NCBI GenBank assembly: GCA_005879015.1
Contig: VBMC01000012.1
Span: forward strand, 1 to 13,023
Length of the DNA stretch: 13,023 nt
From: Methanobacteriota archaeon
Lineage (GTDB): Archaea; Thermoplasmatota; Thermoplasmata; RBG-16-68-12
Direction of reading: 5' to 3'
Part shown: positions 1-13,023 of the stretch, in pieces
Numbering within the stretch: position 1 is the first letter of the stretch
How the letters are laid out: every line of letters begins with the position of its first letter
The notes under the pieces: model-generated
Database searches by the model: none
Told to the model about the DNA's origin: nothing
What the model saw: only the letters and a program-made list of their open reading frames with translations
Program-made: the position numbers and the translations under genes

Positions 1-441
1 AAGGCCCTAGTCGAGGCCGGGGGGATGTCCTCGCGAGTATCGTTCACGGGCCGCCTTCCGACGCCGGAGTACCTGCGGCAGACCGCGGCGATCGATGTCG
101 GCCTTGCCCTCTATTTCCCCACAACGAAGAACCAGACGACCGTCGTGCCGTTGAAGCTGTTCGACTACATGGGCCTCGGCATCCCGATCGTGGGCAGCGA
201 CTTCGCGGAGTTGCGACGGATCATCACGAACCTGTGTGGCTGTGGTGCCACGACGGATCCCGAGGACCCCGAGGCCCTTCGACGGGCCGTCGAGGCGCTC
301 CTCCGCGACCGGGCGGGGAGACAGGAGATGGGACGACGGGCACGGGAATGTTTCCAAACGCGGTTCTGCCAAGAACGGCAGGAGGAGGCCTTGCAGCGGT
401 CGCATCCCGTCTTCGCGGCCGGGGCCGATCGTCAGGGGTGA
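1..441 (+). CDS. Glycosyltransferase family 4, C-terminal part (5' truncated)
   Basis: The reading frame is open from base 1 and ends at TGA 439-441, so only the last 146 residues of the protein are present. They fit the C-terminal Rossmann-like domain of a GT-B fold glycosyltransferase, which binds the nucleotide-sugar donor. Visible landmarks are VSFTGRLPTPEYLR (the usual 'G.v....l..y...adv' step), a run containing VPLKLFDYMGLGIPIVGSD (the K-x-F-E/D-Y-M-x-x-G-x-P motif of GT4 enzymes), and a helical tail. The sugar and acceptor cannot be told. The last 20 or so residues look unlike a typical GT4 end, but no frame change is needed to explain this. The stop codon lies inside the ribosome-binding site of the methyltransferase that follows, so the two are probably co-transcribed in a glycan-synthesis operon. 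Confidence 0.85.
   Translation, partial: KALVEAGGMSSRVSFTGRLPTPEYLRQTAAIDVGLALYFPTTKNQTTVVPLKLFDYMGLGIPIVGSDFAELRRIITNLCGCGATTDPEDPEALRRAVEALLRDRAGRQEMGRRARECFQTRFCQERQEEALQRSHPVFAAGADRQG
435..441 (+). promoter_or_regulatory. Shine-Dalgarno site for the methyltransferase at 451
   Basis: GGGGTGA matches the archaeal anti-SD complement (GGAGGTGA) and sits 9 bases before ATG 451. It overlaps the stop codon of the upstream glycosyltransferase, which suggests translational coupling. Confidence 0.6.
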
Positions 442-450
442 CGTGCGACG

Positions 451-1233
451 ATGGACGCGAGGAAGCGGGCCGTCACGGACATAGTGCAATTCCCTCCGAC
501 GGTCCGCCTGGCGTACCGCTATCGCTGGCCTCTGCTCCGCTGGCTCCTCGACGAGCACGCGTTCCTACGCGAGGCCCTGCGGAAGGCGTGGCCGACGGCC
601 GTCCGCCAGGAGCTCGTGGTGACGGAGCGCGTCGTCGAAATTCCGTTCGTCCTCCGGTCGCTCGACCTCCCGGTCGGGAGTCGGGTGCTCGACATCGGAT
701 CGCGGTGGTCCGTGCTTCCGCTCTACCTCGTTTCCCTCGGCTACCGAACGGTTGCGGTGGACCTCCTGGACATCCTCCTCGGGTCGGCCGGACCCGATCT
801 GGTGAAGGCGGACCTCCGAGCCCCGCCATTCCGGACCGATTCCTTTGACGCCGCGGTGATGGTCAGCACGCTCGAACACGTTGGGATCGGGTGGTACGAC
901 GACCGCACGGACCCGGCGGATGACCAGCGGATCATGGGGAACCTCCGCACCCTGGTGAGACCGGGAGGGAGCCTCCTCCTCACGGTGCCATTCGGGCGCG
1001 GAGGGGTCGGACGGATCCAGAGGGCCTACGATGACGAACGTCTCCGGACCATAACCGAGGGCTGGACCATCGAGGAACAATCCTTCTTCGTCCAACGCGG
1101 GACCGCCTGGAGGCCTGCCACGCAGGAGGTCGCCGGGCGCGAGGATTCGGTCGAGTCGACCCGGGCGGTCGCCCTACTCCATCTACGGGCGTCAGGCCGC
1201 GGAACCGATCAGCCGGCCAAGGCCCGCTCATAG
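451..1233 (+). CDS. Class I SAM-dependent methyltransferase (glycan-cluster type)
   Basis: This 260-residue protein has a seven-strand Rossmann methyltransferase core. Motif I is VLDIGSRWS (residues 79-87), followed by an acidic strand end AVDLLD (102-107, D104 likely contacting the SAM ribose). Next come FDAAVMVSTLEHVGIGWYDD (132-151) and RPGGSLLLTVPFG (170-182). The 'STLEHVGIG...D...D' block and the segment RVVEIPFVLRSL ahead of motif I are typical of methyltransferases found beside glycosyltransferases in polysaccharide loci. The glycine-rich loop is degenerate, with only one glycine (DIGSRWS). The gene starts at ATG 451 behind a good ribosome-binding site. Its last 25 bases overlap, tail to tail, the end of the minus-strand glycosyltransferase. 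The likely role is methylation of a sugar or of a precursor in surface-glycan or N-glycan synthesis; the substrate is unknown. Confidence 0.8.
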   Translation: MDARKRAVTDIVQFPPTVRLAYRYRWPLLRWLLDEHAFLREALRKAWPTAVRQELVVTERVVEIPFVLRSLDLPVGSRVLDIGSRWSVLPLYLVSLGYRTVAVDLLDILLGSAGPDLVKADLRAPPFRTDSFDAAVMVSTLEHVGIGWYDDRTDPADDQRIMGNLRTLVRPGGSLLLTVPFGRGGVGRIQRAYDDERLRTITEGWTIEEQSFFVQRGTAWRPATQEVAGREDSVESTRAVALLHLRASGRGTDQPAKARS

Positions 1234-2180
1234 GCGTGCAGCGTGCCTTCCGCCGTCTTCCGGAACGTGAAGAGACGGGCCCGTGCGACCCGTTCGTCCA
1301 AGGTACCCTTTGGACCGTGGCTCAAGCAGTCAAGCATGGCGCCCGTGAGGAAGTCCACGTCCTCGAAGTAGCACCCCATGGGCCCGAGGACCTCTCGGAC
1401 TGCCGGTGCACGCGCGAGGACGTGAGCACCGCACCCAAGCGCCTCCAAGGGGACGAATCCAAATCCCTCCTCGGGCGTCGGATGGACAACCAGCGTCGCG
1501 CGACTGTACACCTGAGGAATCCCGGCTTCGCCCGGCCAATACACCTTCACGCGGGACCGAAGATTCGGACGTCCACGCAGATGCTCATCTAGGGTCTGGA
1601 ACCATGGGATTCGGGCGTCTCCGACGAAATGGAGCTCGTGGGGAATCCGATCCGCAATCCTCTCGAACGCCTCGAAGGTCAGCCTCGGCTCTTTGATCTC
1701 CCGGTGAATTCCCACTTGGACGATGAACGGCGTCTCCGGGGGTTCCCCGGCGATCGGCCGGAACCGGTCTTCGAGTCCGAGGGGTACGACGTCCATCGGG
1801 ACTCGCGGGTGAAATACCTTCTGGACGACGTCGCGGGTGCGCTCGCTGTCGACGACCATTCGTTTGCAAAAATGGCTGAACCAACGGAGCTTCTGGAGGT
1901 ACAAGGTCCGGATCCAAAGGCCATAGTATTGGGGCAACAGGGAGGGGAAGAGGTCGTGGATCGTGATGACCAAGGGGCGGCGTGGTCGGAGCGGCGCGTT
2001 CCAGGGCGCGGCAGGATCGTGGAGTACGTCAACGTCCCTTGGGTTGGCGCCCTTGTGTAAGGGCACGACGTCGACGCCCAAGTTGCGGAGTTCGCGGGTG
2101 AGGTAGTAGATGTACTTCGAGTACCCCGTGCCGATCTGGCCGTTCCGGTAGAGGTGGTCCGAATACAGGCCGACCCGCAT
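1209..2180 (-). CDS. Glycosyltransferase family 4 (GT-B fold)
   Basis: A complete 323-residue protein, short but normal for compact GT4 enzymes. The N-terminal acceptor domain begins MRVGLYSDHLYRNGQIGTGYSKYIYYL, with the glycine loop for the acceptor, and contains VITIHDLFPSLLP (71-83). The donor domain follows from about residue 150 (PFIVQVGIHREIKEPRLTFEAF). It carries the E-x7-E signature HPTPEEGFGFVPLEALGCG (233-251), with E238 and E246 as the conserved pair. The enzyme should move a sugar from a nucleotide-sugar donor to a glycan acceptor at the cytoplasmic face of the membrane; donor and linkage cannot be read. No signal peptide or membrane segment is visible. ATG 2180 has no ribosome-binding site, but a TATA-like element lies about 27 bases upstream, which fits a leaderless mRNA. 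It runs opposite to the flanking methyltransferases. Confidence 0.88.
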   Translation of the reverse strand: MRVGLYSDHLYRNGQIGTGYSKYIYYLTRELRNLGVDVVPLHKGANPRDVDVLHDPAAPWNAPLRPRRPLVITIHDLFPSLLPQYYGLWIRTLYLQKLRWFSHFCKRMVVDSERTRDVVQKVFHPRVPMDVVPLGLEDRFRPIAGEPPETPFIVQVGIHREIKEPRLTFEAFERIADRIPHELHFVGDARIPWFQTLDEHLRGRPNLRSRVKVYWPGEAGIPQVYSRATLVVHPTPEEGFGFVPLEALGCGAHVLARAPAVREVLGPMGCYFEDVDFLTGAMLDCLSHGPKGTLDERVARARLFTFRKTAEGTLHAYERALAG

Positions 2181-2591
2181 CGACTGCTGAATGAATGGTT
2201 TCGTATTTAGGAATGGGTCGCTCGACTGATGGGCATGATGAACCGTGGGGTCACTGCAAGAGTCTTTTCACCCATGATGCAATGCGGACGCGGAGGCGGA
2301 ATGTCCGCGAGGCCCATCCGGTACTGCGCCTGTGGAACCGCTCGGAGCAACCTCGGACGAAGGACGGTACATGGGGCGGGGAGAGAATACGGCATTCGAA
2401 GTATTGCCGGAAAAAGCCGGCCAGGATCGCTTCCGGATGTTTCGAATCGTTGCTGCCAGTAGACCCGGCGACAAACCTTATCCCATGCCATCAATTCCGA
2501 CGTCGCAGCGAGTTCGTGGGTGATCTTCGTTAGGCACGTCGACTTGGCCAATTGAAAGATCAATAGATGCAGGCGCGGCGGAGTTGGTCCC
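2181..2591. other. Gene-poor, more A/T-rich interval
   Basis: These roughly 410 bases lie between a divergent glycosyltransferase and methyltransferase. Short open frames exist on both strands, but none has a recognisable domain, a convincing ribosome-binding site or protein-like composition. There is a weak stem GCCGG-AAAAAG-CCGGC at 2406-2421 and a direct repeat CATGATG at 2234 and 2273. No tRNA or other RNA gene was seen. The base composition is visibly less GC-rich than the genes around it. It may hold promoters for both flanking genes, or the remains of a decayed gene. Confidence 0.5.
2204..2209 (-). promoter_or_regulatory. Candidate TATA box for the minus-strand glycosyltransferase
   Basis: On the minus strand the sequence reads CTAAATAC, centred 26-27 bases upstream of the A of ATG 2180. 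This is the archaeal TATA-to-start distance, so transcription would begin at the start codon itself. That agrees with the absence of a Shine-Dalgarno. The upstream BRE is not purine-rich, so support is moderate. Confidence 0.4.
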
Positions 2592-3113
2592 CTGACATGG
2601 CGACTTAACCTCGGAAGCGGGGAATCCCGATTCCCAGAGTTTGTGAACGTCGACATCTACGGCGGCGATATCCGAGCGAGCGCCGAACATCTTCCGTTCC
2701 GGGAGGGGTCCTTCGATTTCATTCATGCGAGCCATGTACTCGAACACGTCCCTGACCTCGATCGCGTGATGCGTGAGCTCCATCGAGTTCTTTCTCCCGA
2801 TGGAGTCCTCCAAGCACGCGTTCCGTATGGGCTGCGTTCGCTTTACGTCCCGTTCCATCTCCACGCGTTCAACCTCAACACGTTCGACTACTTCACGAAC
2901 CAACCGAGTGGCCTCCAAGGCGGCCCTCTGTTCGTCCTACTCCAGAAACGAACTTCGGATTGGTGGCTCCCGTTCCGCTGGCACCTCACCCGATATTTCC
3001 CGCGCTTGTTTGGGATTATCTCAGCGGCTGAAGACGACGGGAAGCGGCATCTTCGGCTGCCGACGGGTTTCCGGCACGAACTCTTCGTTCGGCTGAAGAA
3101 GCGAGGACCATGA
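2592..3113 (+). CDS. Short class I SAM-dependent methyltransferase, probable CTG start
   Basis: I read a 173-residue protein from CTG 2592. Its N-terminus, (M)TWRLNLGSGESRFPEFVNVD, holds SAM motif I (LNLGSGE, residues 5-11) and the acidic residue D21 (FVNVD). Then follow ASAEHLPFREGSFDFIHASHVLEHVPDL and a conserved RELHRVLSPDGVLQARVPYG. This order is standard for the family of small methyltransferases found with glycosyltransferases in surface-glycan loci. The first ATG/GTG/TTG in frame is GTG 2643, which would remove motif I. The frame is closed upstream by TGA 2553-2555. GGAG at 2580-2583 lies 8 bases before CTG 2592, supporting it as the start. Alternatively a former ATG has mutated and the gene is failing. 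It stops 43 bases before the convergent glycosyltransferase ends. Substrate unknown. Confidence 0.72.
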   Translation: MTWRLNLGSGESRFPEFVNVDIYGGDIRASAEHLPFREGSFDFIHASHVLEHVPDLDRVMRELHRVLSPDGVLQARVPYGLRSLYVPFHLHAFNLNTFDYFTNQPSGLQGGPLFVLLQKRTSDWWLPFRWHLTRYFPRLFGIISAAEDDGKRHLRLPTGFRHELFVRLKKRGP

Positions 3114-3156
3114 GTGGAAATCACATTCACGACATCGAGCGCGGCATTCTGCTTCT

Positions 3157-4200
3157 TCATCGCGGGTCCAGCGCGGCCTCATAGGCTTGTAGGTACGCGC
3201 TTGTCACGAGGTCGAGGTTCGCGGTTTGATTCACGAAAGAGTGGGCGCGCTCCCCGATCTCCCGTGCGGCCGTCGGATCCTCGAGAGCTTGCTTGATGCA
3301 ACGGACGAGGGACTCGGCATCGTTGGCGAGCCATCCGGTCACGCCGTGTTGGATGACTTCAGGGATGTTCCCCAGAGGCGTTGCGATAACCGGCGTCTTG
3401 AAGGCGATTGGGAAGAAGATGGAGCCCGATGTAGTTACTTCCTTGTACGGTTGGACGACGACGTTGCAGGCTTTGAACCAGTACTGTAACTCCTCGTCTC
3501 GGAGTTCAACAAGATGGATTCGAAGGTTCGCGTTCGCCGCGGCGGCGTCGCGGATCTCCCGGGCCAGTGGCGGATCGTGGCATGCACCGAAAATGCAGCA
3601 AAAGACATCCTTGCGTGCCATCCGGCGGATCGCCTCCAGAAAGAGGCGCGTTCCTTTGTAAGGGAGGGTGGGCGCAAAGTGCCCGACCACGGGGGCTCCG
3701 AGCGGGACACCGATCCTTTGCCGGGCCTCTTCGAGGGAAACCGTATCCGGCCAGATTCCATTGAAACTCATGTGCGGGATGATTCGATTGTTCGCCTTCC
3801 AAGTGGTCGGCAGGCCGCGGGCGGCAAAGAGATCCCGGGCCTCGCCGATGGTCCGTTCGCTGTGCCACACCGCAACATCCACACGGTCCAGATACCAATG
3901 GGTCGTGAAAATGTCCTCCCGGAACAGAGGGGCATGGGGAACAAGATTGTGGACCGTCCACACCTTGGGCACTCGGGTCGCGAAGAATAGTCTCGCGCCG
4001 AGGGCGGTGTCGAAGATGTTCCAATGCAAATGGCAAAGATCAGGTCCCTCGATCATTCTGCCGATGAATCGAACGATGTTCCCCGGCCACCGGACGTAGG
4101 GAAAGGGAGCTTCCGTGACCTGGACGCCTCGCCTGGTGAGGGCTTGCTTCAACAGACGGAGGTACACATGGCGACCCTCGGGAACGGCGAGGACCCTCAT
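3157..4200 (-). CDS. GT4-like glycosyltransferase
   Basis: A complete 347-residue GT-B fold protein starting at ATG 4200. The N-terminal domain begins MRVLAVPEGRHVYLRLLKQAL and has CHLHWNIFD (56-64) and VWTVHNLVPH (80-89), a pattern seen in polysaccharide glycosyltransferases that carry an 'LHW...TVHN' signature. The donor domain has VVGHFAPTLPYKGTRLFLEA (171-190) and VVQPYKEVTTSGS (248-260), then FKTPVIATPLGNIPEVI. The TTSGS segment replaces the classical E-x7-E; this variant is common in the subgroup. No membrane segment is seen. No clear Shine-Dalgarno precedes ATG 4200. The gene is divergent from the smc operon and convergent with the short methyltransferase. It probably adds one sugar in the same glycan pathway as its neighbours; donor and acceptor are unknown. 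Confidence 0.85.
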   Translation of the reverse strand: MRVLAVPEGRHVYLRLLKQALTRRGVQVTEAPFPYVRWPGNIVRFIGRMIEGPDLCHLHWNIFDTALGARLFFATRVPKVWTVHNLVPHAPLFREDIFTTHWYLDRVDVAVWHSERTIGEARDLFAARGLPTTWKANNRIIPHMSFNGIWPDTVSLEEARQRIGVPLGAPVVGHFAPTLPYKGTRLFLEAIRRMARKDVFCCIFGACHDPPLAREIRDAAAANANLRIHLVELRDEELQYWFKACNVVVQPYKEVTTSGSIFFPIAFKTPVIATPLGNIPEVIQHGVTGWLANDAESLVRCIKQALEDPTAAREIGERAHSFVNQTANLDLVTSAYLQAYEAALDPR

Positions 4201-4325
4201 TGGCTCGACCAGACATCGGGATAACGGAGTCGCTCGTAAAAACTGCGTTCGGACACGGAGGGCCGCGGCGTTCGCGTGGAAATAGGGCGTTTGTCAAACC
4301 GATACCGATTCGCGCCCCGCTACCC

Positions 4326-4333
4326 TTTTATAG
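4326..4333 (+). promoter_or_regulatory. Probable TATA box of the smc-scpA-scpB operon
   Basis: TTTTATAG stands out in a GC-rich divergent intergenic region. A start of transcription about 26 bases downstream (near 4356) would give a leader of roughly 90 bases before smc, containing two hairpins. Confidence 0.55.
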
Positions 4334-4357
4334 ACATCACTTCCTTGCGCATCCCTC

Positions 4358-4375
4358 GTCTGACTCGCGTCAGAC
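4358..4375 (+). repeat. Perfect inverted repeat at the predicted 5' end of the smc mRNA
   Basis: GTCTGAC-TCGC-GTCAGAC is a perfect 7-bp inverted repeat with a 4-base loop. It begins almost exactly where transcription from the TATA box at 4326 should start. It could be an operator for a dimeric repressor covering the start site, or a stabilising 5' RNA hairpin. Confidence 0.5.
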
Positions 4376-4406
4376 ACTAGAAGGATATACATGGGATGGG
4401 TTGCAA

Positions 4407-4424
4407 CAGCGCGCCCCCGCGCTG
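4407..4424 (+). repeat. Second perfect hairpin in the smc leader
   Basis: CAGCGCG-CCCC-CGCGCTG is a perfect 7-bp stem with a CCCC loop, ending 15 bases before the smc ribosome-binding site. As RNA it would be very stable and may affect ribosome access. No T-run follows, so it is not an obvious terminator. Confidence 0.5.
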
Positions 4425-4438
4425 ACGCTCCACCGGTC

Positions 4439-4444
4439 AGGTGA
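4439..4444 (+). promoter_or_regulatory. Shine-Dalgarno that decides the smc start
   Basis: AGGTGA matches the 16S 3' end complement and lies 5 bases before TTG 4450. It overlaps the alternative start GTG 4441, which has no ribosome-binding site of its own. This favours TTG 4450. Confidence 0.5.
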
Positions 4445-4449
4445 CGCCT

Positions 4450-7400
4450 TTGTTCCTGAAAGAGATCCAGATGGAGAATTTCAAGTCGTTCGGGCGAAAG
4501 ATCTCGGTCCCCTTCCTGCAGGGGTACACGTCCATCACGGGTCCCAACGGCTCCGGGAAAAGCAACATCGCGGACGCCATCCTGTTCGTCCTCGGCCCGA
4601 AGAGCGCGAAGGCGATCCGCGCAGGCAAACTGACGGATCTGATCTGGAACGGCGGGAAGGACAAGAACGCCGCCGACTCGTGCCAGGTCAGCCTGATCTT
4701 CGACAACTCGGACCGGCAGATTCCCCTCGAGGCGGACGAGGTGAAGCTGACGCGGTACATCGGCCTGAGCCCCTCCGTGGAGGGCGGCTACAACTCGTAC
4801 TTTTACATCAACGACCGGAAGTCCTCCCTGTCCGAATTCGACTCCCTCCTCGCACACGCGCGGATCTCGGCGGAAGGCTACAACCTCGTCCAGCAGGGGG
4901 ACATCCAACGGGTCGTGTCCATGTCCTCCGTGGAGCGCCGGCGGATCCTGGACAACATCGCGGGGATCACGAAGTTCGACGACGACATCAATCAGGCGGA
5001 AGGGAAACGCAAGGAGACCGAGGAGAACCTGGAGCGGATCCGGATCATCCTCGACGAGATCGACAAGCAGATCAAGCAGCTCGAGTCGGATCGGGACGGC
5101 GCGCTGAAGTACCGGGACCTGAACGAGCGCCTCACGACGGCGAAGGCCCAGCTCGCGTACAAGAACCGCGAACTGATCGAGCGGCAGATCGTCGGGACGC
5201 GAGAGCAGGTTGCGAAGCACGAGGCGGACAAGGCCAAGCTCGAGGCCCAGAAGCAGGAACTCCGCGGTCGGCTGGACGCCGCCGTCGCCCGGTTGAGCGA
5301 GCTCGAGCAAGAAATGGCGGACCGCGGCGGGGAGGAGGCGAAGCAGCTCAAGGAGAAGTTGGACGGCCTCCGGATCGAGCGGGCCCGAGCCACGGACGGG
5401 ATCGAGACTTCGAAGGAGACGCTGAAGCAGCTCCGGACCGAGAACGCGGACGCGACGAAGGAGAAAGGGAAGGTCCAGAAGGAGACGGACGCCCTCGCGC
5501 GGGAGCGGGAGAACGTCGATAAGCGCGTCGGCGACCTGGACGGCCAGATCAAGTCCGCGGACAAGGACCTCCATGAGGTCGATGAACTCGCGTCGAAGAG
5601 CGACGCGAAGGTGCTGACCATTCAGAAGCAGATCATCGCGCTGAACAACGAGATCGACCAGGTCGAGGAGAAGGTCAAGGGCCTCGTCCTGGAGGGAGAC
5701 CGGACGAAGGAGGCGATGACACGCCTCGAGTCCGAGATCGCCCTGCTCGAGGAATCCCGGAAACAATACCAGGTCGAGCATGAGGATGCGGACTGGCAGC
5801 TCAAGGAGCTGCACTCGTCCACGAAGGAATCGGGCAAGAGCCTCGAGAAACTCCAAGAGGACTTCCACAGCCGCAGGTCCGAGGAGACCCGCCTCGCGAA
5901 AGAGCAGGCCGAACTGCAGACGGCGATCTTGAGCCTGACCCGGCAATATGCGCAACTCAAGGCGGAGGCCGACGTCGCGGAGAACATGAAGCGCGGCTAC
6001 ACGTCCGCCGTCTCCGCGATCCTCGAGTGCCGCGAGACCGGTTCCATTAAGGGAATCCACGGGACCGTGGCCCAGCTCGCCCACGTCGAGACCCAGTACG
6101 AGACGGCGATCGTCACGTCCGCGGGCGCGCGGATGCAGGCGATCATCGTCGACGACGACACGGTCGCGGCCCAGTGCATCGATTACCTGAAGAAGCGCAA
6201 GGTCGGCCGCGCGACGTTCCTCCCTCTCAACAAGATGCTCGTCGGGAAACCGCGGGGCAAGGCGATCCTCGTGGCGAAGGAATGCCTCGGCTTCGCGATC
6301 GACCTCTGCCACTTCGACGAAAAGTACCGGGACGCGTTCTTCTACGTCTTCGGGGACACGCTCGTGGTCCAGACCCTCGACGAGGCGCGCAAGTGGATGG
6401 GCGGCGTCCGGCTCGTCACGATCGAAGGAGAGCTCATCGAGGCTTCCGGCGCCATGGTCGGCGGCGAGATGGAGCGGTCCACCGTGAAGTTCGGACCCAC
6501 GGCCGCGAGCGAGATGGAGAAGATCGCGGAGAAGTTGCGCGAGGCGCAGGCCCAGGGCGAGACGGTGGCGAACCGCCTCGACGAACTCCGAAAGGAGATC
6601 CTGGGACTCGAAGAGACGATCAAGGACACGGGCGGCCGGTCCGGGGCCGTCGAGGTGAAGACGAGCACGCTCGAGGCGAAACGGAAGGAGTTCGCCGCGA
6701 AGCTCGCGTCCGCGGACAAGGACCTCGCGGACCGGAAGGGACGGTTCGAGGACGCGCGGAAGACCGCGGCGCGGATCGAAGAGGACCTGACCAAATTCAC
6801 GAACGACGCCGAGGCCCTGAAGGCAAAACGGGACGAGCGCAAGAAGGCCGTCATGGAGGCGACGCCCCAGCAGATCTCCTCTCGGATGAAGGAGCTCATG
6901 AACCGCCGGGCGGCCTTCGCGGAGGAGTTGAGCGGCCTCCGGTCGAAACTCGAGGCCATGACGACCCAGACCACGTTCCTCGACGAGCGGCGGACGGAAC
7001 TCGACACGCGGATCGGGAGCTTGGAGGATCAGCGGAAGGAGCACGAGAAGCGGATCGAGACCTTCGAGGCGTCCCTCGGGCGGCTCGAGACGGAGATCCG
7101 CGGCCTCGAGAAGACGGAAGCCCAGATGGGCAAGAAGTTGAAGGACCTCCAGGACGCCCGCGACGCCGCGTACAAGGAGAAGACGGACCGCGAAGCGGAC
7201 CTCGACAAGGTCACGCACAAGATCGAGACGAAGGAGGACTTCCTCCTCAAGTTGGAAACGGAGCTGAAGGTCCAGGAGGAGCAGCTCGCGGAAGCGGAGC
7301 GCGTCATGACGGAGATGGCCGTCGAGGTCAAGGAAGGCCGCCTCCCGAGCCTCGAGGAACTCAAGACGACGATCGGCGAATGCGAGGCCGCGATCACGGC

Positions 7401-8036
7401 CCTCGGTCCGATCAATCTGAGGGCCCTCGAGGACTACGACGCCCAGCAAGCCCGCGCGGTCGAGCTCAAGGACGAGTTCAAGCGGCTCGAGGGCCAGCGG
7501 GAGGAACTGATCCGCCTGGTCGAGCAGCTGACGGACCGCAAGAAGGAGGGACTCGCGAAGGTCTTCACCGCGATCAGCGAGAACTTCACCCGCGTCTACG
7601 CGGAACTGAGCGAAGGCGGCGAAGCGGACCTCGTCCTCGAGGACCCGGAGAAACCGTTCGAGGCAGGCCTCATCCTGAAGGTGAGCCGGCGCACAAGAAG
7701 GTGCTGCGGCTCGAAGCCCTCTCCGGCGGGGAGAAGTCCCTCGCCTCGATGGCACTGATCTTCGCGATCCAGGAGTATGACCCGTCGCCCTTCTACCTGC
7801 TCGACGAGATCGACCAGAACCTCGACGCGATCAACGCGGAGAAGGTCGCCCGGATGATCCGGCGGAACAGCACGGCCGCGCAGTTCGTGCAGATCTCGTT
7901 GCGCAAGGTGAGCCTGAAAGAGGCGGACCACTTGATCGGCGTCACGATGACGCCGGAATCCGTCTCCGAAGTCATCATGCGCGTGAACCTGGCGGACATC
8001 GAGGACGAGAAGCCGACCGAGGTGATCCCGGCATGA
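4450..8036 (+). CDS. smc: Chromosome segregation ATPase SMC (with a -1 frameshift)
   Basis: SMC is the ATPase of the archaeal/bacterial condensin that, with ScpA and ScpB, loops and organises the chromosome. From TTG 4450 it reads (M)FLKEIQMENFKSFGRK, the usual SMC N-terminus; GTG 4441 would add three residues. The Walker A is GPNGSGKS (residues 31-38) and the Q-loop NLVQQGDI is near 148. A long coiled coil is followed by the hinge domain (about 531-677, from GIHGTVAQL to GAMVGGE), then the returning coiled coil. The frame then breaks: after LKVS (codon AGC 7684-7686) the family sequence continues in the -1 frame as PAHKKVLRLEALSGGEKS. There the ABC signature is LSGGEKS (7719-7739) and the Walker B is PFYLLDEID (7788-7814). 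Joined, the product is about 1195 residues, the normal SMC size. Without the join, the first frame stops at 7758 and lacks signature and Walker B. A missing C in a CC/CCC run is the simplest explanation. The stop overlaps the scpA start (ATGA). Confidence 0.95.
7680..7692 (+). other. Frameshift site in smc (one base apparently missing)
   Basis: Frame 1 reads L-K-V-S up to 7686 and frame 3 reads P-A-H-K-K-V-L from 7686. Adding one C (AGCC to AGCCC) restores an uninterrupted SMC head domain. No slippery heptamer is present. Both sides are well conserved, so a sequencing or assembly indel is likelier than an old pseudogene. Confidence 0.85.
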
Positions 8037-8953
8037 GCGAGAACTACCAGACGGTGTTGAACCACCTGCTGTTCCACAAGGCCTTGATCAGCGAGACGGA
8101 AGGCGGACAGCGGATCAACCGCTATCTGTCGATGTTGAACGAGATCGACCAGGGCATGCACGTCGCCGTGCGCGATCCATTCGAGAAGTCCGTCGTCGCG
8201 GCGTTCGAACTCGTCCTCGAGCGGCAGATGGACCCCTGGGAGATCAACCTCGTGCCCTTCACGAAGCTCTTCCTGGACAAGGTGAAGAAGGACGGCTCCG
8301 TGAACTTCGTGACCGCGGGCAAGCTCGTCTTCCTCGCCTGGTCGATCCTGAAGCTGCAGAGCGACAAGGTCCTGCTCGACGCGATGCCGCCGGAACCCAC
8401 GCCGGAGGATGGCGGCTGGGACCTCGACATGTTCCGGGATCCCGCGGACCTCGACTACAACCAGGTCGTACTGGCCGGGACCGCGACGCCCCTCACGGAG
8501 GCGATCCACCGCGAAGGCCGCCGGGCCGTGACCCTGATGGAGCTGATGGACGCCTTCGACGAGGCCCGCCGCGAGGCGGACATCCAGATGCAATTGAACG
8601 CCCTGCGCGAGCAGGCGATCCGCAAGTTCGCCCCGAACTTCCACCAGAAGGTGCACGGGGAGGACCTGACGGAGGACATCGCCCTCACCTGGCAACGCCT
8701 CGCTCAGTTCAACGGCGAGCCGATCCCGCTCCGCTCCCTGACGGTCGGAGACGTCTGGGACGAGGTCACCGTGTTCATGTCTCTCCTCTTCCTCGCCCAC
8801 CTGGAGAAGGTGAAGCTGTGGCAGAAGGACTACCCGTACGGAGAGATCTTCGTGAAGCGTCTCTCCATGGAGGTCGATCTCCCGATGGAAGAACTGCTCG
8901 CGATCCCAGTCCTCGGGCCGAAGCCTATCGGGACCCCGGAGGCCGTGCCATGA
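8033..8953 (+). CDS. scpA: Segregation and condensation protein A (kleisin)
   Basis: ScpA is the kleisin that bridges the two SMC heads and binds ScpB. The 306-residue protein shows the expected order. The N-terminal helical domain has DPFEKSVVAAFELVLERQMDPWEINLVPFTKLFLDKV (48-84), the counterpart of 'FDGPLDLLL.LI....ldi.di.i..it.qyl'. Next is GKLVFLAWSILKLQSDKVLL (96-115), matching the 'a..Ll.lKS..LL' helix. A variable linker leads to the C-terminal winged helix, DEVTVFMSLLFLAHLEKVKLWQKDYPYGEIFVKR (243-276), which contacts the SMC head. An unusual N-terminal extension of about 45 residues (MSENYQTVLNHLLFHKALI...) precedes the first helix. ATG 8033 overlaps the smc stop as ATGA, and the scpB start overlaps its stop the same way, so the three are translated together. 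Confidence 0.92.
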   Translation: MSENYQTVLNHLLFHKALISETEGGQRINRYLSMLNEIDQGMHVAVRDPFEKSVVAAFELVLERQMDPWEINLVPFTKLFLDKVKKDGSVNFVTAGKLVFLAWSILKLQSDKVLLDAMPPEPTPEDGGWDLDMFRDPADLDYNQVVLAGTATPLTEAIHREGRRAVTLMELMDAFDEARREADIQMQLNALREQAIRKFAPNFHQKVHGEDLTEDIALTWQRLAQFNGEPIPLRSLTVGDVWDEVTVFMSLLFLAHLEKVKLWQKDYPYGEIFVKRLSMEVDLPMEELLAIPVLGPKPIGTPEAVP

Positions 8954-9576
8954 ACCCTCGGGCGATCGTGGAAGCGGCCCTCTTCAGTGCCGGGAAAGCC
9001 CTCACCCCCGAGGACCTCGCCCGGACAACGAGGCTTGAGCCGGACGTGATCCGGGAGCACCTTCGGGCCTTGTCGAAGGAGTACACGAAACGGGAAAGTG
9101 CGATCGAGGTCGCGCAGATCGGGACGAAGTGGACGATGCAAATCCGCTCGGATTACTCGGAACGGGCCCGTGCCTTCGCCCCGCCAGAGATCGACCGGGA
9201 CCTCCTGAAGACGGCGGCCCTGATCGCCTACCACCAGCCGCTCCTCCAGAGCGACCTGTTCGACATGATCGGCTCGAAGGTGTACGAGCACACGAAGGGG
9301 CTCGAGGATCTCGGCCTCATCAACCGCAAGCCCTCCGGCCGCTCCCTCGCCCTGACGACGACGCGGTATTTTGCGGAATTCTTCGGACTGAAGTCCACGG
9401 ACCGCGAGGGGATCCGCCGACTCATGGCGGAGAAGGCCGGCGTCCCGTACAAGGAGAGGCCGGAAGGCACGCTCTCGGACGACGCGACCGAAGCGAGTCC
9501 GTTGCCCGCGCCCGAATCGGGCGCCGCGGTCCCGGTCTCGACCTCCCCGTCTCCCGTCGCCGCGGGAAACGAATAG
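8950..9576 (+). CDS. scpB: Segregation and condensation protein B
   Basis: ScpB dimerises and binds the middle of ScpA, completing the SMC-ScpAB complex. The start ATG 8950 overlaps the scpA stop (ATGA) and gives a 208-residue protein beginning MNPRAIVEAALFSAGKALTPEDLA, the usual ScpB opening. A longer open frame upstream is just scpA read out of frame. The first winged helix covers about residues 1-80 (with ALSKEYTKRESAIEVAQIGTKWTMQI). The second covers about 80-150 (DLLKTAALIAYHQPLLQSDLFDMIGSKVYEHTKGLEDLGLINRK, then TTTRYFAEFFGL). From about residue 165 the tail is rich in P, A, S and E and probably disordered. No promoter separates it from scpA. A new TATA box lies about 85 bases after its stop. 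Confidence 0.92.
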   Translation: MNPRAIVEAALFSAGKALTPEDLARTTRLEPDVIREHLRALSKEYTKRESAIEVAQIGTKWTMQIRSDYSERARAFAPPEIDRDLLKTAALIAYHQPLLQSDLFDMIGSKVYEHTKGLEDLGLINRKPSGRSLALTTTRYFAEFFGLKSTDREGIRRLMAEKAGVPYKERPEGTLSDDATEASPLPAPESGAAVPVSTSPSPVAAGNE

Positions 9577-9660
9577 GGCCGTTCGCGGTTCCGACCACCG
9601 CAAAACCGGGTCCCCAAAACGGACGCGGTGAATCATGCGTGATAACCACGGGCTAACGCG

Positions 9661-9668
9661 TTTATAAG
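9661..9668 (+). promoter_or_regulatory. TATA box for the giant repeat protein gene
   Basis: TTTATAAG is a strong archaeal TATA match, in the 169-base gap after scpB. Transcription should start near 9690, giving a leader of about 55 bases before GTG 9746. The gene downstream of the condensin operon therefore likely has its own promoter. Confidence 0.6.
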
Positions 9669-9745
9669 CTCGGATTTCTGACAACCATGCTGTTTCTCCC
9701 AGGACGAGCCGTAGCCGTCCCCCGAGGCAGCGGAGCCCCCGACCC

Positions 9746-12700
9746 GTGAGCGGGTACCTGCGAGACAACGCACTGCGAAAGCACTTGGACGAGAAAGTCA
9801 AGGAGACGGCCCGGACCCGTCAGGCCGCCGAGGACGGCCTGAGGGCCGCCCAGGACATGCTGGACCAGGCGCGCCGCGTCGACACGAACGTCGCGGAAGC
9901 GGAACGGGCCCTCGCGGAGGCAAGCGCCGCGATGGTCGCGAAGGACTACAAGGTCGCCGTCGACAAGTCCGCCGAGGCCCTCGAACGCGGGAGGCGCAGC
10001 TATCGAGAACGCGCCCGAGGGATCGTCGATTCGAGCGCGGCCCTAGGACGACTCGCGAAAGGGCTCGGCGCGGACCTGGCGGAGACGGAATCGACGCTCG
10101 CGAAAGCGGAAGGCGCCCTCGCCGCGGAAGACCTCGGAGGGGCGATCGACCACGCCAAGAAGGCGTGGAAACGGAGCGAGAAGATCCTCCAGGAACATCT
10201 GTCGTCCTCCTTCTCCAAGGCCCAAGCTCTCATCCTCTCGGCGAAGAACATGAGCCAGGATGTCGCACCGATCGAAGACCTCCTCTCGCGGGCTCGATCG
10301 GCGATGGAGAACAACGACTTCCAGAGCGCCCTCGACTTCACGAAGGAAGGGCTCGATACGATCCGGGAGGACATGACCGCCGCCATGACGAGGGAGATCC
10401 GGGTCGCGGAGGACCTCGTCCGGACGGCAAACGAGCTCGGCGCGGACACGACGAAGCCCGCGAACCTCATCGAGCGGGCCCGCGGGGACGTGACCAACCT
10501 CGATTTCGAGAAGGCGAAGAACGCCGTCAACCAGAGCCGGGCCGAATCGGAGAAAGCCCTCCAACGGTCCCTGGACGGACGGGCCAGCGACTTCTCCCGC
10601 ATCCTCCAGGAAGCGCGCGCGATGGGGGCCGACCCGGCCGTCGCCCAGGAGGTGCTCACCCGCGCGGAGACTGCGATCAAGAAAGGCAGTTACCAAGAAG
10701 GGGCCCAGCTCGCGAAGCAAGGGTTCCAAGCGGTCCAGCAGGCCCAGTTCCTGCGGGTCGTCGCCGTGCTCGGCACGTCCCGCGAGAAGTTCGCGGCCGC
10801 CGCGAACATGGGCGTGGATCTGAAAGGCCCGTTCGAGGACCTGAACACGGCCCGCGAGGCGATCCGACGAGGCGCGTTCCAGGAGGCGATCGCGCACGCG
10901 AAGCGCGCCGACGTGGCCGTCGACGCGATCCTGGACCGGTACCGCAAGGTCGAGACGCGGTTGAAGGAACTCCATCGGTCCTTCGCGGAGGTCGAGGGCT
11001 TCGGTGTCCAGACCGCGCGTGCACGCAAGCTCTCCGAGGCGGCTCGACAAGCGTACCAGGAGCGGAATCCGCCCGAGGTCGAGAAGGCGGTCCAGTCCGC
11101 CTTCGACGAGCTTCGACGGGCGGAGCGGGAACGGGTCTTGGAGGCGATCGAGCGCGCCGAGTTCATCCTGACGCTGGGCGAACAGAACGGGGTCGATCTC
11201 TCGGAGCCGTCGAAGCTCCTTCAAGAGGCCATTGTCGCGACGAAGTCGGACGACTACCGACATGCACTCGATCTCACCACGATACTCCAGGGCAAGGCGG
11301 AGCGGAGACTCGCCGAACTCGCGGCCAAACAGATTTCGACCCTGCGGACGTCCCTTCCCCACCTCGGCGACGAGAGCGGCAGCTTGAAGGCCCTCGTCAA
11401 CCGGGCGGACGCCTCGATGGCGTCCCAGGATTTCGAGGGGGCGTTCAAGGCGGTCGCGGAAGGTCAGAGGCTCGTCGAGGCACGGGTCCGGACGCGGGCC
11501 GAGGAGATCGTGGCCGACCTGGCCCTCGCGGTGCGGGTCGGCGTCGATGTGGGGGCGAACGTCACGGCCCTCGAGGCGTTGCACCGGGAACTGAACGCAT
11601 ACCTGGGCGGAGGCCAGGTCGCGGAGATCGTCGCCACGCGCGACAAGGCGACCGCGGCCCTCGCCGGCATCACGGACACCCTGGTCAGTCTCGTCCGCGG
11701 ACGGATCGGCGCTGCCCAGGGCCTCAAGATCGAAGTGGACGACCTGAACGACCTCGTGCGCCGCGCGCGCATGGCCTTCGGCGTCCAGAACTACCACGAA
11801 GGGTTGCGCCTCCTGAATGATGGGAACGAGCGCGCGAGCAAGGCGAGCGCGATGCACCGCCAGGCCTACAACGCGATCGCGACCGCCGCGGCCTTCGTGG
11901 CGGAGGCGAAGAAGAGGAACGTGGACGTGTCCAAGGTCGTGGAGATGCTCGTCGACGCGAAGAAGGCGTTCGAGCAGCTCGATCTCGAACGCGCCGTGCA
12001 GCTCGCGGGCGCGGCCCGGACGGAGACGGACAAGCTTACCGCCCTGTACTCCTCGGCACAGAAGATCCTTTCGTCCCGGGGCCGGCTCGAGCTCGCGGAG
12101 CGACTTGGGATCGCGGCGCCGCACCTCCGCCAGGTGTTCGCCGACGCCAAGGAGGCGATGAAGGCAAAGGACTACGACAAGGCGCTCGCCTTCGCACAGC
12201 GCACGGAGGACGAATTCACCGCCCTGATCAAGGACCGGCTGGCCTCCTCGTTGATGGCCTCAGAGCAACTCCTGGGTTCTTTGGAGGGCGTCGACCTCGC
12301 CGGGTCGAGCGACACCCTCGTCCGGGCGCGCGGCCACCTCGAGGCCGGGGAGGTCGAACAGGCCGCGGAGCTCTCACTCCAACTCAAGAGCCAGCTCGAC
12401 ACGCGCAAACGGCAGGGCGACGAGACGGAGGCCGCCCTGCGACAGATCCAAGACATCCTCGCCGACGCCGAGGCAATGAACGCTCCGTTGGAACGGACGC
12501 GGGCCCTGTTCGAAAGCGCCGAACGCGCGCATCGGCTCGGGCAGTTCGACGAGGCCCTCGACATCGTCGCCCAGGCTGACGTGGAGGCGACGAAGGAACG
12601 GGACCAGACGATCGCCGCGATGATGAAGCGCTTCGAAGAGAGCGTCCTCCGGGCGAAGAAGGAAGGGACCGACACCCGGTCCGCGGAGAAACTGTTCGAA

Positions 12701-13023
12701 AGCAGGCGATCGCGAAGCAGGCCGTCGACAGCGTGGAAGGCAAGCTCCGCGCGCTCGGCAAGGGATCGGAGCTGGTCGTCGGCTTCGTCGCCGACAGCCG
12801 CAAGGCGTACTCGGATGGCGACTACGTCAAGGCGCTGGACACGGCGATTCACGCATCCGATTCCATCGCGGACCTGCGGGTCCTACTCGAAGAGGTCGCG
12901 GAGGTCCGCGATAAGGCCCGGGAGCTCCTGCAGGTCTTCGCCGACGTCGGGGCCGACGCGACGAAGTTCGAGAGGTCGTTCCAGGAAGGGGAGGCCGCCT
13001 TCGAGATCGGCGAGGTCGAGCGG
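9746..13023 (+). CDS. Giant helical-repeat / coiled-coil protein (3' partial, with frameshift)
   Basis: I do not recognise the family. The frame starts at GTG 9746, with GGAG at 9732-9735 ten bases upstream. The only in-frame stop upstream is TAA 9665-9667, with no other ATG/GTG/TTG between. The product begins VSGYLRDNALRKHLDEKVKE, has no signal peptide or membrane segment, and is almost entirely alpha-helical, rich in A, E, R, K and D. It is built from tandem units of about 62 residues, each with a core like 'RAxxAMxxxDFxxALxxAxxA' (for example RARSAMENNDFQSALDF and DAKEAMKAKDYDKALAF) joined by long helices. The core resembles helix B of a TPR, but the period is far from 34. From residue 985 (12700) the repeat continues in the -1 frame to the window end. 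Its position right after smc-scpAB suggests, but does not prove, a chromosome-related or scaffold role. Confidence 0.8.
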   Translation, partial: MSGYLRDNALRKHLDEKVKETARTRQAAEDGLRAAQDMLDQARRVDTNVAEAERALAEASAAMVAKDYKVAVDKSAEALERGRRSYRERARGIVDSSAALGRLAKGLGADLAETESTLAKAEGALAAEDLGGAIDHAKKAWKRSEKILQEHLSSSFSKAQALILSAKNMSQDVAPIEDLLSRARSAMENNDFQSALDFTKEGLDTIREDMTAAMTREIRVAEDLVRTANELGADTTKPANLIERARGDVTNLDFEKAKNAVNQSRAESEKALQRSLDGRASDFSRILQEARAMGADPAVAQEVLTRAETAIKKGSYQEGAQLAKQGFQAVQQAQFLRVVAVLGTSREKFAAAANMGVDLKGPFEDLNTAREAIRRGAFQEAIAHAKRADVAVDAILDRYRKVETRLKELHRSFAEVEGFGVQTARARKLSEAARQAYQERNPPEVEKAVQSAFDELRRAERERVLEAIERAEFILTLGEQNGVDLSEPSKLLQEAIVATKSDDYRHALDLTTILQGKAERRLAELAAKQISTLRTSLPHLGDESGSLKALVNRADASMASQDFEGAFKAVAEGQRLVEARVRTRAEEIVADLALAVRVGVDVGANVTALEALHRELNAYLGGGQVAEIVATRDKATAALAGITDTLVSLVRGRIGAAQGLKIEVDDLNDLVRRARMAFGVQNYHEGLRLLNDGNERASKASAMHRQAYNAIATAAAFVAEAKKRNVDVSKVVEMLVDAKKAFEQLDLERAVQLAGAARTETDKLTALYSSAQKILSSRGRLELAERLGIAAPHLRQVFADAKEAMKAKDYDKALAFAQRTEDEFTALIKDRLASSLMASEQLLGSLEGVDLAGSSDTLVRARGHLEAGEVEQAAELSLQLKSQLDTRKRQGDETEAALRQIQDILADAEAMNAPLERTRALFESAERAHRLGQFDEALDIVAQADVEATKERDQTIAAMMKRFEESVLRAKKEGTDTRSAEKLFESRRSRSRPSTAWKASSARSARDRSWSSASSPTAARRTRMATTSRRWTRRFTHPIPSRTCGSYSKRSRRSAIRPGSSCRSSPTSGPTRRSSRGRSRKGRPPSRSARSS
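9890..12720 (+). repeat. Tandem 62-residue (about 186-bp) helical repeat array
   Basis: The marker dipeptide (D/S/A/G/Q followed by F/Y/L/V) falls at residues 67, 129, 191, 253, 315 and 377, exactly 62 apart. It continues less regularly at about 443, 503, 562, 624, 682, 746, 809, 869 and 933 (spacing 58-67). Units are diverged in sequence, sharing mainly alanines and the D-[FY]-x-x-A pattern. The array is therefore old, not a recent DNA-level amplification. More units follow after the frameshift (SDGDYVKALD, then GEAAFEIGEVE). Confidence 0.75.
12698..12722 (+). other. Frameshift and direct repeat in the giant protein gene
   Basis: The repeat protein frame runs to LFE (12692-12700), then turns into a serine/arginine-rich, non-helical translation. 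The -1 frame from 12700 resumes KQAIAKQAVDSVEGKL and typical repeat sequence. One missing A in the AAA run would fix the frame. AAGCAGGC occurs twice here, at 12700-12707 and 12715-12722. The next unit marker (D at about residue 1026) is about 93 residues after the previous one (933), not 62 or 124. A longer deletion of 3n+1 bases between repeats is therefore also possible. Confidence 0.7.

Follow-up and report, generated by a model that had tools for sequence, protein, structure and literature searches.

A protein predicted to form a long helical rod, with an Ig-like end and, usually, a C4HC3 finger, encoded beside smc-scpAB in an order of Thermoplasmata

Spectrin repeats have a period of about 106 residues, and the rods they form are in-line three-helix bundles that act as spacer or scaffold. 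Here, we describe a gene on a 13,023-nucleotide stretch of archaeal DNA, below called the window (GenBank assembly GCA_005879015.1, contig VBMC01000012.1, positions 1 to 13,023; order RBG-16-68-12, class Thermoplasmata, phylum Thermoplasmatota), whose product is modeled as a comparable rod and is called the rod protein in the following. Among the closest known systems are the spectrin rods, with which we group EzrA, a spectrin-like regulator of bacterial cytokinesis (PMC4243239, in part), but it differs from spectrin in having a unit of 62 residues, no sequence match, and an immunoglobulin (Ig)-like domain and a zinc finger at its end. The giant staphylococcal proteins Ebh and Embp (EbhA, 2dgj; Embp, PMC7587433, in part) reside on the cell surface and are much longer, whereas the rod protein looks soluble, is taken to have about 22 units and ends in the Ig-like domain and finger. 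The ligand order of that finger, C4HC3, is the one given for prokaryotic RINGs (PMC11354881, in part), and a C4HC3 variant RING is carried by Nse1, the kite subunit of eukaryotic Smc5/6 (PMC8750328, in part). RINGv and C3H2C3 RING genes are described from a marine group II euryarchaeote (PMC4327156, in part), so that the mere presence of RING-like genes in euryarchaeotes is no novelty. We found no description of the rod protein in the literature searched, a search not wholly aimed at it and not covering the 2011 prokaryotic-RING survey of Burroughs.

The frame of the rod gene is intact on the plus strand from a GTG start at 9746 to 12706 (9746..12706), leaving 987 codons open and encoding about 16 of the helical units; the N-terminus of the product, MSGYLRD..., is conserved in family f1. 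The BLOSUM62 autocorrelation of this frame was highest at lag 62 (z 9.95, against a background of 400 shuffles) and reached z 7.4 at lag 124; lags 34 and 68 were absent among the listed top lags, and lag 33 had a z of 2.9. A hidden Markov model (HMM) of the unit was seeded on three sequences (the window, L004 and L008) and retrained on ten proteins, the same ones that it then scanned. In the window frame, it found 15 units, at steps of 64, 62, 62, 62, 62, 62, 64, 62, 59, 120, 64, 63, 60 and 64 residues; the 120-residue step is taken as one probably missed unit. These steps agree with the initial annotation, which was made from the sequence alone and had counted six consecutive markers exactly 62 residues apart, followed by units of varying spacing. 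It had also held the repeat to be neither TPR, nor the 106-residue spectrin repeat, nor HEAT, and all three are excluded by the period of 62 and the lack of profile matches over cut-off: the Pfam scan of the rod repeats gave no such match, and TPR_2 stayed below cut-off at an E value of 0.45. Several units weakly match the NCBIfam model of the SoxAX-binding protein SAXB (NF052674), with 34.8 bits in the window and at most 80 bits in L040, and we rejected this identity because the scores fall below the cut-off of 95.

The unbroken frame in relatives of the same order spans 1,446–1,530 codons, which corresponds to a protein of about 1,500 residues; the rod genes of L010, L011 and L013 contain frame breaks. 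Among nine full-length proteins, the unit HMM found 22 units in four, 20–21 in another four and 17 in L057, and 8 of the 10 proteins shared the same first eight unit steps. Counting missed units, we take the rod to consist of about 22, and the order and spacing of the units are largely common to distant relatives in the class. AlphaFold2 predicted residues 1–620 of the window's protein as helical, with a mean predicted local distance difference test score (pLDDT) of 88 and a predicted template modeling score (pTM) of 0.43, using an alignment of 11 sequences (the structure predictions used 11 and 9 family-f1 sequences). In the model, helices of 39 and 15 residues alternate (68–106, 112–126, 130–168, 174–188, 192–230 and onward), which implies short three-helix bundles that would be joined, spectrin-like, by continuous helices. 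The very long helical protein foreseen in the initial annotation, with structure prediction of its units as the proposed check, is thus upheld as a predicted rod, but the repeats do not extend to the end, which in relatives is formed by an Ig-like domain and, for the most part, a zinc finger. A Foldseek search with the rod model returned nothing significant. Three rod proteins showed no hydrophobic stretch that could serve in export or anchoring, and the protein looks soluble.

The window itself stops short of this end. Its genome is 65.8% complete in 300 contigs, the window being contig C153, and the Ig-like domain and zinc finger of its rod gene fall past the contig end. At the junction 12700..12701 on the plus strand the frame changes, as had been noticed before, but a point slip does not account for it: the relative L004, with 96% identical DNA around this site, has 91 bp that are missing here, and the loss may be an assembly fault or a true deletion. 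The gene continues in the other frame through 12701..13023, the edge of the contig. At the edge of another contig of the same genome, C242, lies a 3′ end of the rod gene, with 76 codons including the finger, beside a convergent hutH, an arrangement that matches that of relatives.

In full-length relatives, the rod is followed by about 100 residues forming an eight-stranded Ig-like domain, with a fold match to 3idu (E value 3.7e-4). CARDB (PF07705) exceeded its cut-off in one of six tips scanned, that of L047 (32.0 vs. 22.7 bits), and in L008, from the window's family, it fell slightly short at 21.6 bits; the other scanned tips scored lower. A zinc-finger signature of eight Cys/His in C4HC3 order was present in 21 of 22 selected tips and in all 21 aligned tips, which had been picked by a pattern over the first six ligands; L045, from the same order, whose protein ends after the Ig-like domain with no finger, was excluded from this alignment. 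Prok-RING_1 (PF14446) shares the C4HC3 finger, but the finger here ends a rod, and the best of six tips, at 28.9 bits, narrowly missed the curated cut-off of 29.1. When the C-terminal thirds of the f1 proteins are aligned, the Ig-like domain and finger are by eye the best-conserved parts, and the finger is nearly invariant in the window's family; together, they are the strongest functional clue. The firm result is this architecture: about 22 orthologous short helical units, an Ig/CARDB-like domain behind them and, in most cases, a terminal C4HC3 finger.

We judge it somewhat more probable than the alternatives taken together that the rod protein acts as a soluble, fixed-length scaffold whose tip binds proteins. 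The product would be cytoplasmic and of about 164 kDa, and the rod would take up its first 90%, with about 22 small bundles of three helices and 62 residues each, chained so that the last helix of one would continue as the first helix of the next. At about 24 net helical residues, or roughly 36 Å, per unit, the rod would measure about 80 nm if straight and could serve as a fixed-length spacer that keeps the C-terminal tip a defined distance away from the binding partner of the N-terminus. Partner proteins would bind at the tip and may be E1/ubiquitin-like (Ubl)/E2 machinery in lineages with those genes; an SMC partner is possible. Each of the four rods examined in families f23, f26 and f65 (L171:3795-8117, L172:4126-8478, L173:2351-6658 and L174:4016-8344, with 17–22 units found) keeps the Ig-like domain but has no finger, which slightly lowers the odds for this reading as well as for a ligase. 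Genomes of f23 and f26 have a separate small gene of about 230–290 codons that matches the tip profile over the finger alone, so that finger and rod are separable modules.

It is less probable, and in our view unlikely, that the protein is a RING-type ubiquitin-ligase-like scaffold, in which the C4HC3 finger would recruit an archaeal E2 and the rod would place substrates. RING E3 ligases have a basic linchpin after the last Cys, although not universally, and Arg or Lys occupied this position in none of the 21 tips; on the other hand, the finger has the ligand order of prokaryotic RINGs (PMC11354881, in part), and the sequences in the PDB that best matched one tip were the RNF165/Arkadia RINGs (E value 1.5e-4). 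E2 genes are found among the relatives, with 22 of 61 over the Pfam cut-off and 21 of 61 by a second profile built from 14 of these E2s, which were aligned from 23 E2 matches after those of f12, G050 and G060 and near-duplicates had been left out; HPN and a Cys are kept in all 14. Open reading frames (ORFs) similar by BLAST to Ubl-like and JAMM genes adjoin E2 in each of the four neighborhoods read (clusters L166:4129-7320, L168:5490-7765, L167:5469-6925 and L169:6611-8037), and ThiF-type E1 genes are included in those of L166 and L168. Pfam found JAB in both clusters scanned (2.1e-15 in L166), and two Ubl-like ORFs matched only YukD, under cut-off. In the window's family, however, E2 was found by neither profile in any of 22 genomes, two of them 98% complete, despite the near-invariance of the finger there, and a ubiquitin tie therefore cannot explain the rod gene in that family. 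The E2-bearing G053 had no rod match, and rods of several families have no finger. The correlation of rod and E2 across genomes is uninformative, as 57 of the 61 relatives match the 987-residue rod query, partly through weak repeat similarity, and 22 have E2.

Family f12 places the two kinds of genes side by side. Next to the rod gene and divergent from it stands a gene for an E2-like protein with a Ubl-like N-terminus, as read directly in G042 and G054 and by coordinates in G308, G316, G340 and G348, making six of the eight genomes having the E2-like gene; eight of the 16 f12 genomes are without it. Among the encoded proteins (L052:8411-9127, minus strand; L054:6288-7004, plus strand; L158–L164), seven of the eight were read, and the active-site Cys is lacking in four and shifted by a residue in three, which counts against a working ligase system. 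A full ubiquitin operon at L052 was rejected, the other neighbors scanned matching TrkA/TrkH transport genes, queH, eIF2-alpha, L44 and others, together with one ORF of 101 residues that had weak matches only. A past or lineage-specific tie of the rod to a ubiquitin-like system is plausible.

The genes upstream of the rod gene in the window raise the possibility of another partner. On the same strand, as first annotated, lie smc (4441..8036; PF06470 and PF02463, SMC hinge 6.2e-33), the kleisin gene scpA (8033..8950) and the kite-family gene scpB (8950..9573; PF04079, 2.1e-32), which stops about 170 bp 5′ of the rod gene. A frame break near 7680, equal to one gap relative to L004 and perhaps a sequencing fault, splits smc, and scpA is divergent from its model (PF02616, E value 0.013, under the Pfam cut-off), its identity being backed by relatives whose scpA matched at the same position. 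Within the order, we counted neighbors in 32 of 37 genomes from six families, excluding G001, G004, G015, G035 and G036, where the gene was missing or fragmented. The upstream scpB is on the same strand and 126–379 bp from the rod gene in 29 of the 32 loci, at 851 bp in one, at 1,966 bp with an inserted gene in another and not seen within 1,993 bp in the last. In L013, an opposite-strand gene inserted between scpB and the rod gene (L013:8141-9916) has weak twin-arginine translocation signal and solute-binding matches. L065 has an ORF on the opposite strand, upstream of its rod gene (L065:9607-11283), that may be the same insertion.

From this setting, the initial annotation had guessed at a chromosome-architecture scaffold or SMC partner and proposed a neighborhood search in related genomes. 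The adjacency did hold up, over six families of the order and with scpB within 2 kb in 31 of 32 loci, but its value as a functional argument is weak. The unrelated gene for histidine ammonia-lyase (hutH) is an equally constant neighbor, convergent and 3–68 bp downstream in 22 of 22 order loci with sequence there, which weakens the synteny of scpB as a functional argument. Outside the order, we considered 34 genomes, 31 of them with at least 1.5 kb upstream (L064, L152 and L156 were shorter), leaving L171–L174 out of the count and counting duplicate copies of contigs once. No scpB was found beside the rod gene in these 34, although the queries were two sequences from the order and a divergent scpB could be missed; hutH follows the rod gene at 64 bp in f18 (1/1) and near 2.85 kb in f8 (5/5), with no scpB upstream there. 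Using smc and scpA queries that included one sequence from outside the order, we found the pair near the rod gene in one of 31 loci, G167 (L136:136-7272), where smc-scpA is followed by a small opposite-strand gene, presumably rpoL, and then by the rod gene; the other four genomes of its family are among the 30 loci with no such link. In f19/f24, all 10 loci have a different gene after the rod gene; the single one scanned carries DUF5591, PUA and TGT domains. As the rod gene is widespread outside the order in places with no smc-scpAB, adjacency is not supported as a functional argument. Having smc-scpAB as neighbors characterizes this order, but no more firmly than having hutH does.

The rod gene probably also has its own promoter. 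As noted initially, a TATA box (CGTTTATAA) is present on the plus strand at 9659..9667, about 80 nt 5′ of the start codon, and in an alignment of 14 upstream regions it is conserved as CGTTTATA in 9 of 10 regions of f1 and as TATAAATAG in all three of f2; a single transcript with smc-scpAB is thereby weakened. Tested archaeal ScpA and ScpB are reported not to interact (PMC7055376, in part), and scpB thus need not mark an SMC complex. Nse1 of Smc5/6 (PMC8750328, in part) offers an attractive analogue for an SMC-partner reading that rests on synteny: in both cases, a C4HC3 finger is connected with an SMC complex, in Nse1 within the kite subunit and here through the place of its gene beside scpB. 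It differs in that the Pfam lists contain no Nse1-family match for the rod protein and that its genomic SMC link is limited to one order and one outside genome. No kleisin, kite or Nse homology was found over the Pfam cut-off in the rod and tips, the Nse2-type model zf-Nse reaching an E value of 0.29, below cut-off, in one tip. The SMC link is real, yet as evidence of function it is weak; with hutH as constant as scpB, 30 of 31 outside loci unlinked, the different following gene in f19/f24 and the promoter all opposing it, a partner of the SMC-ScpAB complex acting as a chromosome-architecture scaffold is improbable, marginally more so than the ligase, even with scpB so regularly adjacent and smc-scpA recurring in G167. 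More doubtful still, and by analogy with Nse1, would be that SMC-ScpAB of this order acquired in parallel a fixed-length C4HC3-RING rod that would reach past SMC arms of about 50 nm (PMC4255302, in part), its tip recruiting effectors to chromosome loops and, where present, Ubl-conjugation enzymes.

That the protein is an adhesin on the cell surface, comparable to the giant Ebh proteins in its Ebh-like bundles and using the CARDB-like domain, named for cell adhesion, to adhere, is very improbable given that three proteins have no hydrophobic export or anchor segment and that the eight-ligand Cys/His finger at the end suggests a cytoplasmic location.

More widely, the tip profile matched 168 of 300 genomes of the class and 84 of 243 in a sample of the phylum, many of the weaker matches spanning the finger alone or the Ig part alone; within the class, none came from f15, and those of f22 were weak and from two genomes. 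Soil genomes from Angelo have been placed in Ca. Angelarchaeales of Thermoplasmatota (PMC9038741, in part); going by sample names, the window's organism, whose nearest named relatives are 'Euryarchaeota archaeon isolate EA_*' genomes and RBG_19FT_COMBO_69_17, may be a soil archaeon of that group. Family f30 has a frame of about double length, at 3,155–3,198 codons in two genomes, for a rod that again carries the Ig-like domain and finger (L129:1574-11167 and L131:1664-11128). The rod profile also matched other architectures (L125:702-2186, L128:911-2485, L126:1-6012, L127:5117-11050 and L134:1992-7976), which are either about 500 residues long with N-terminal zinc-ribbon-like CxxC pairs, as seen by eye, or about 2,000 residues long, one of the latter showing by eye an Ig-like stretch near its end. 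Small frames of about 170–390 codons in f11, f25 and at G000:C74:414-575 match the tip profile in its finger part and have no rod. In the window, the region upstream of smc (1-4200) contains a methyltransferase gene (451-1233) and, on the minus strand, glycosyltransferase genes (1209-2180 and 3157-4200).

The unit order and spacing kept across distant members of the class suggest selection on length itself, as in molecular rulers. In these archaea, a CARDB-like domain is combined with a RING-like finger of C4HC3 type, and some of them have clusters of E2, Ubl-like, JAMM and partly E1 genes, so that the family bears on the origin of RING scaffolds. If the place of the rod gene beside smc-scpAB reflects function, a partner that carries a finger would be added to an archaeal SMC complex.

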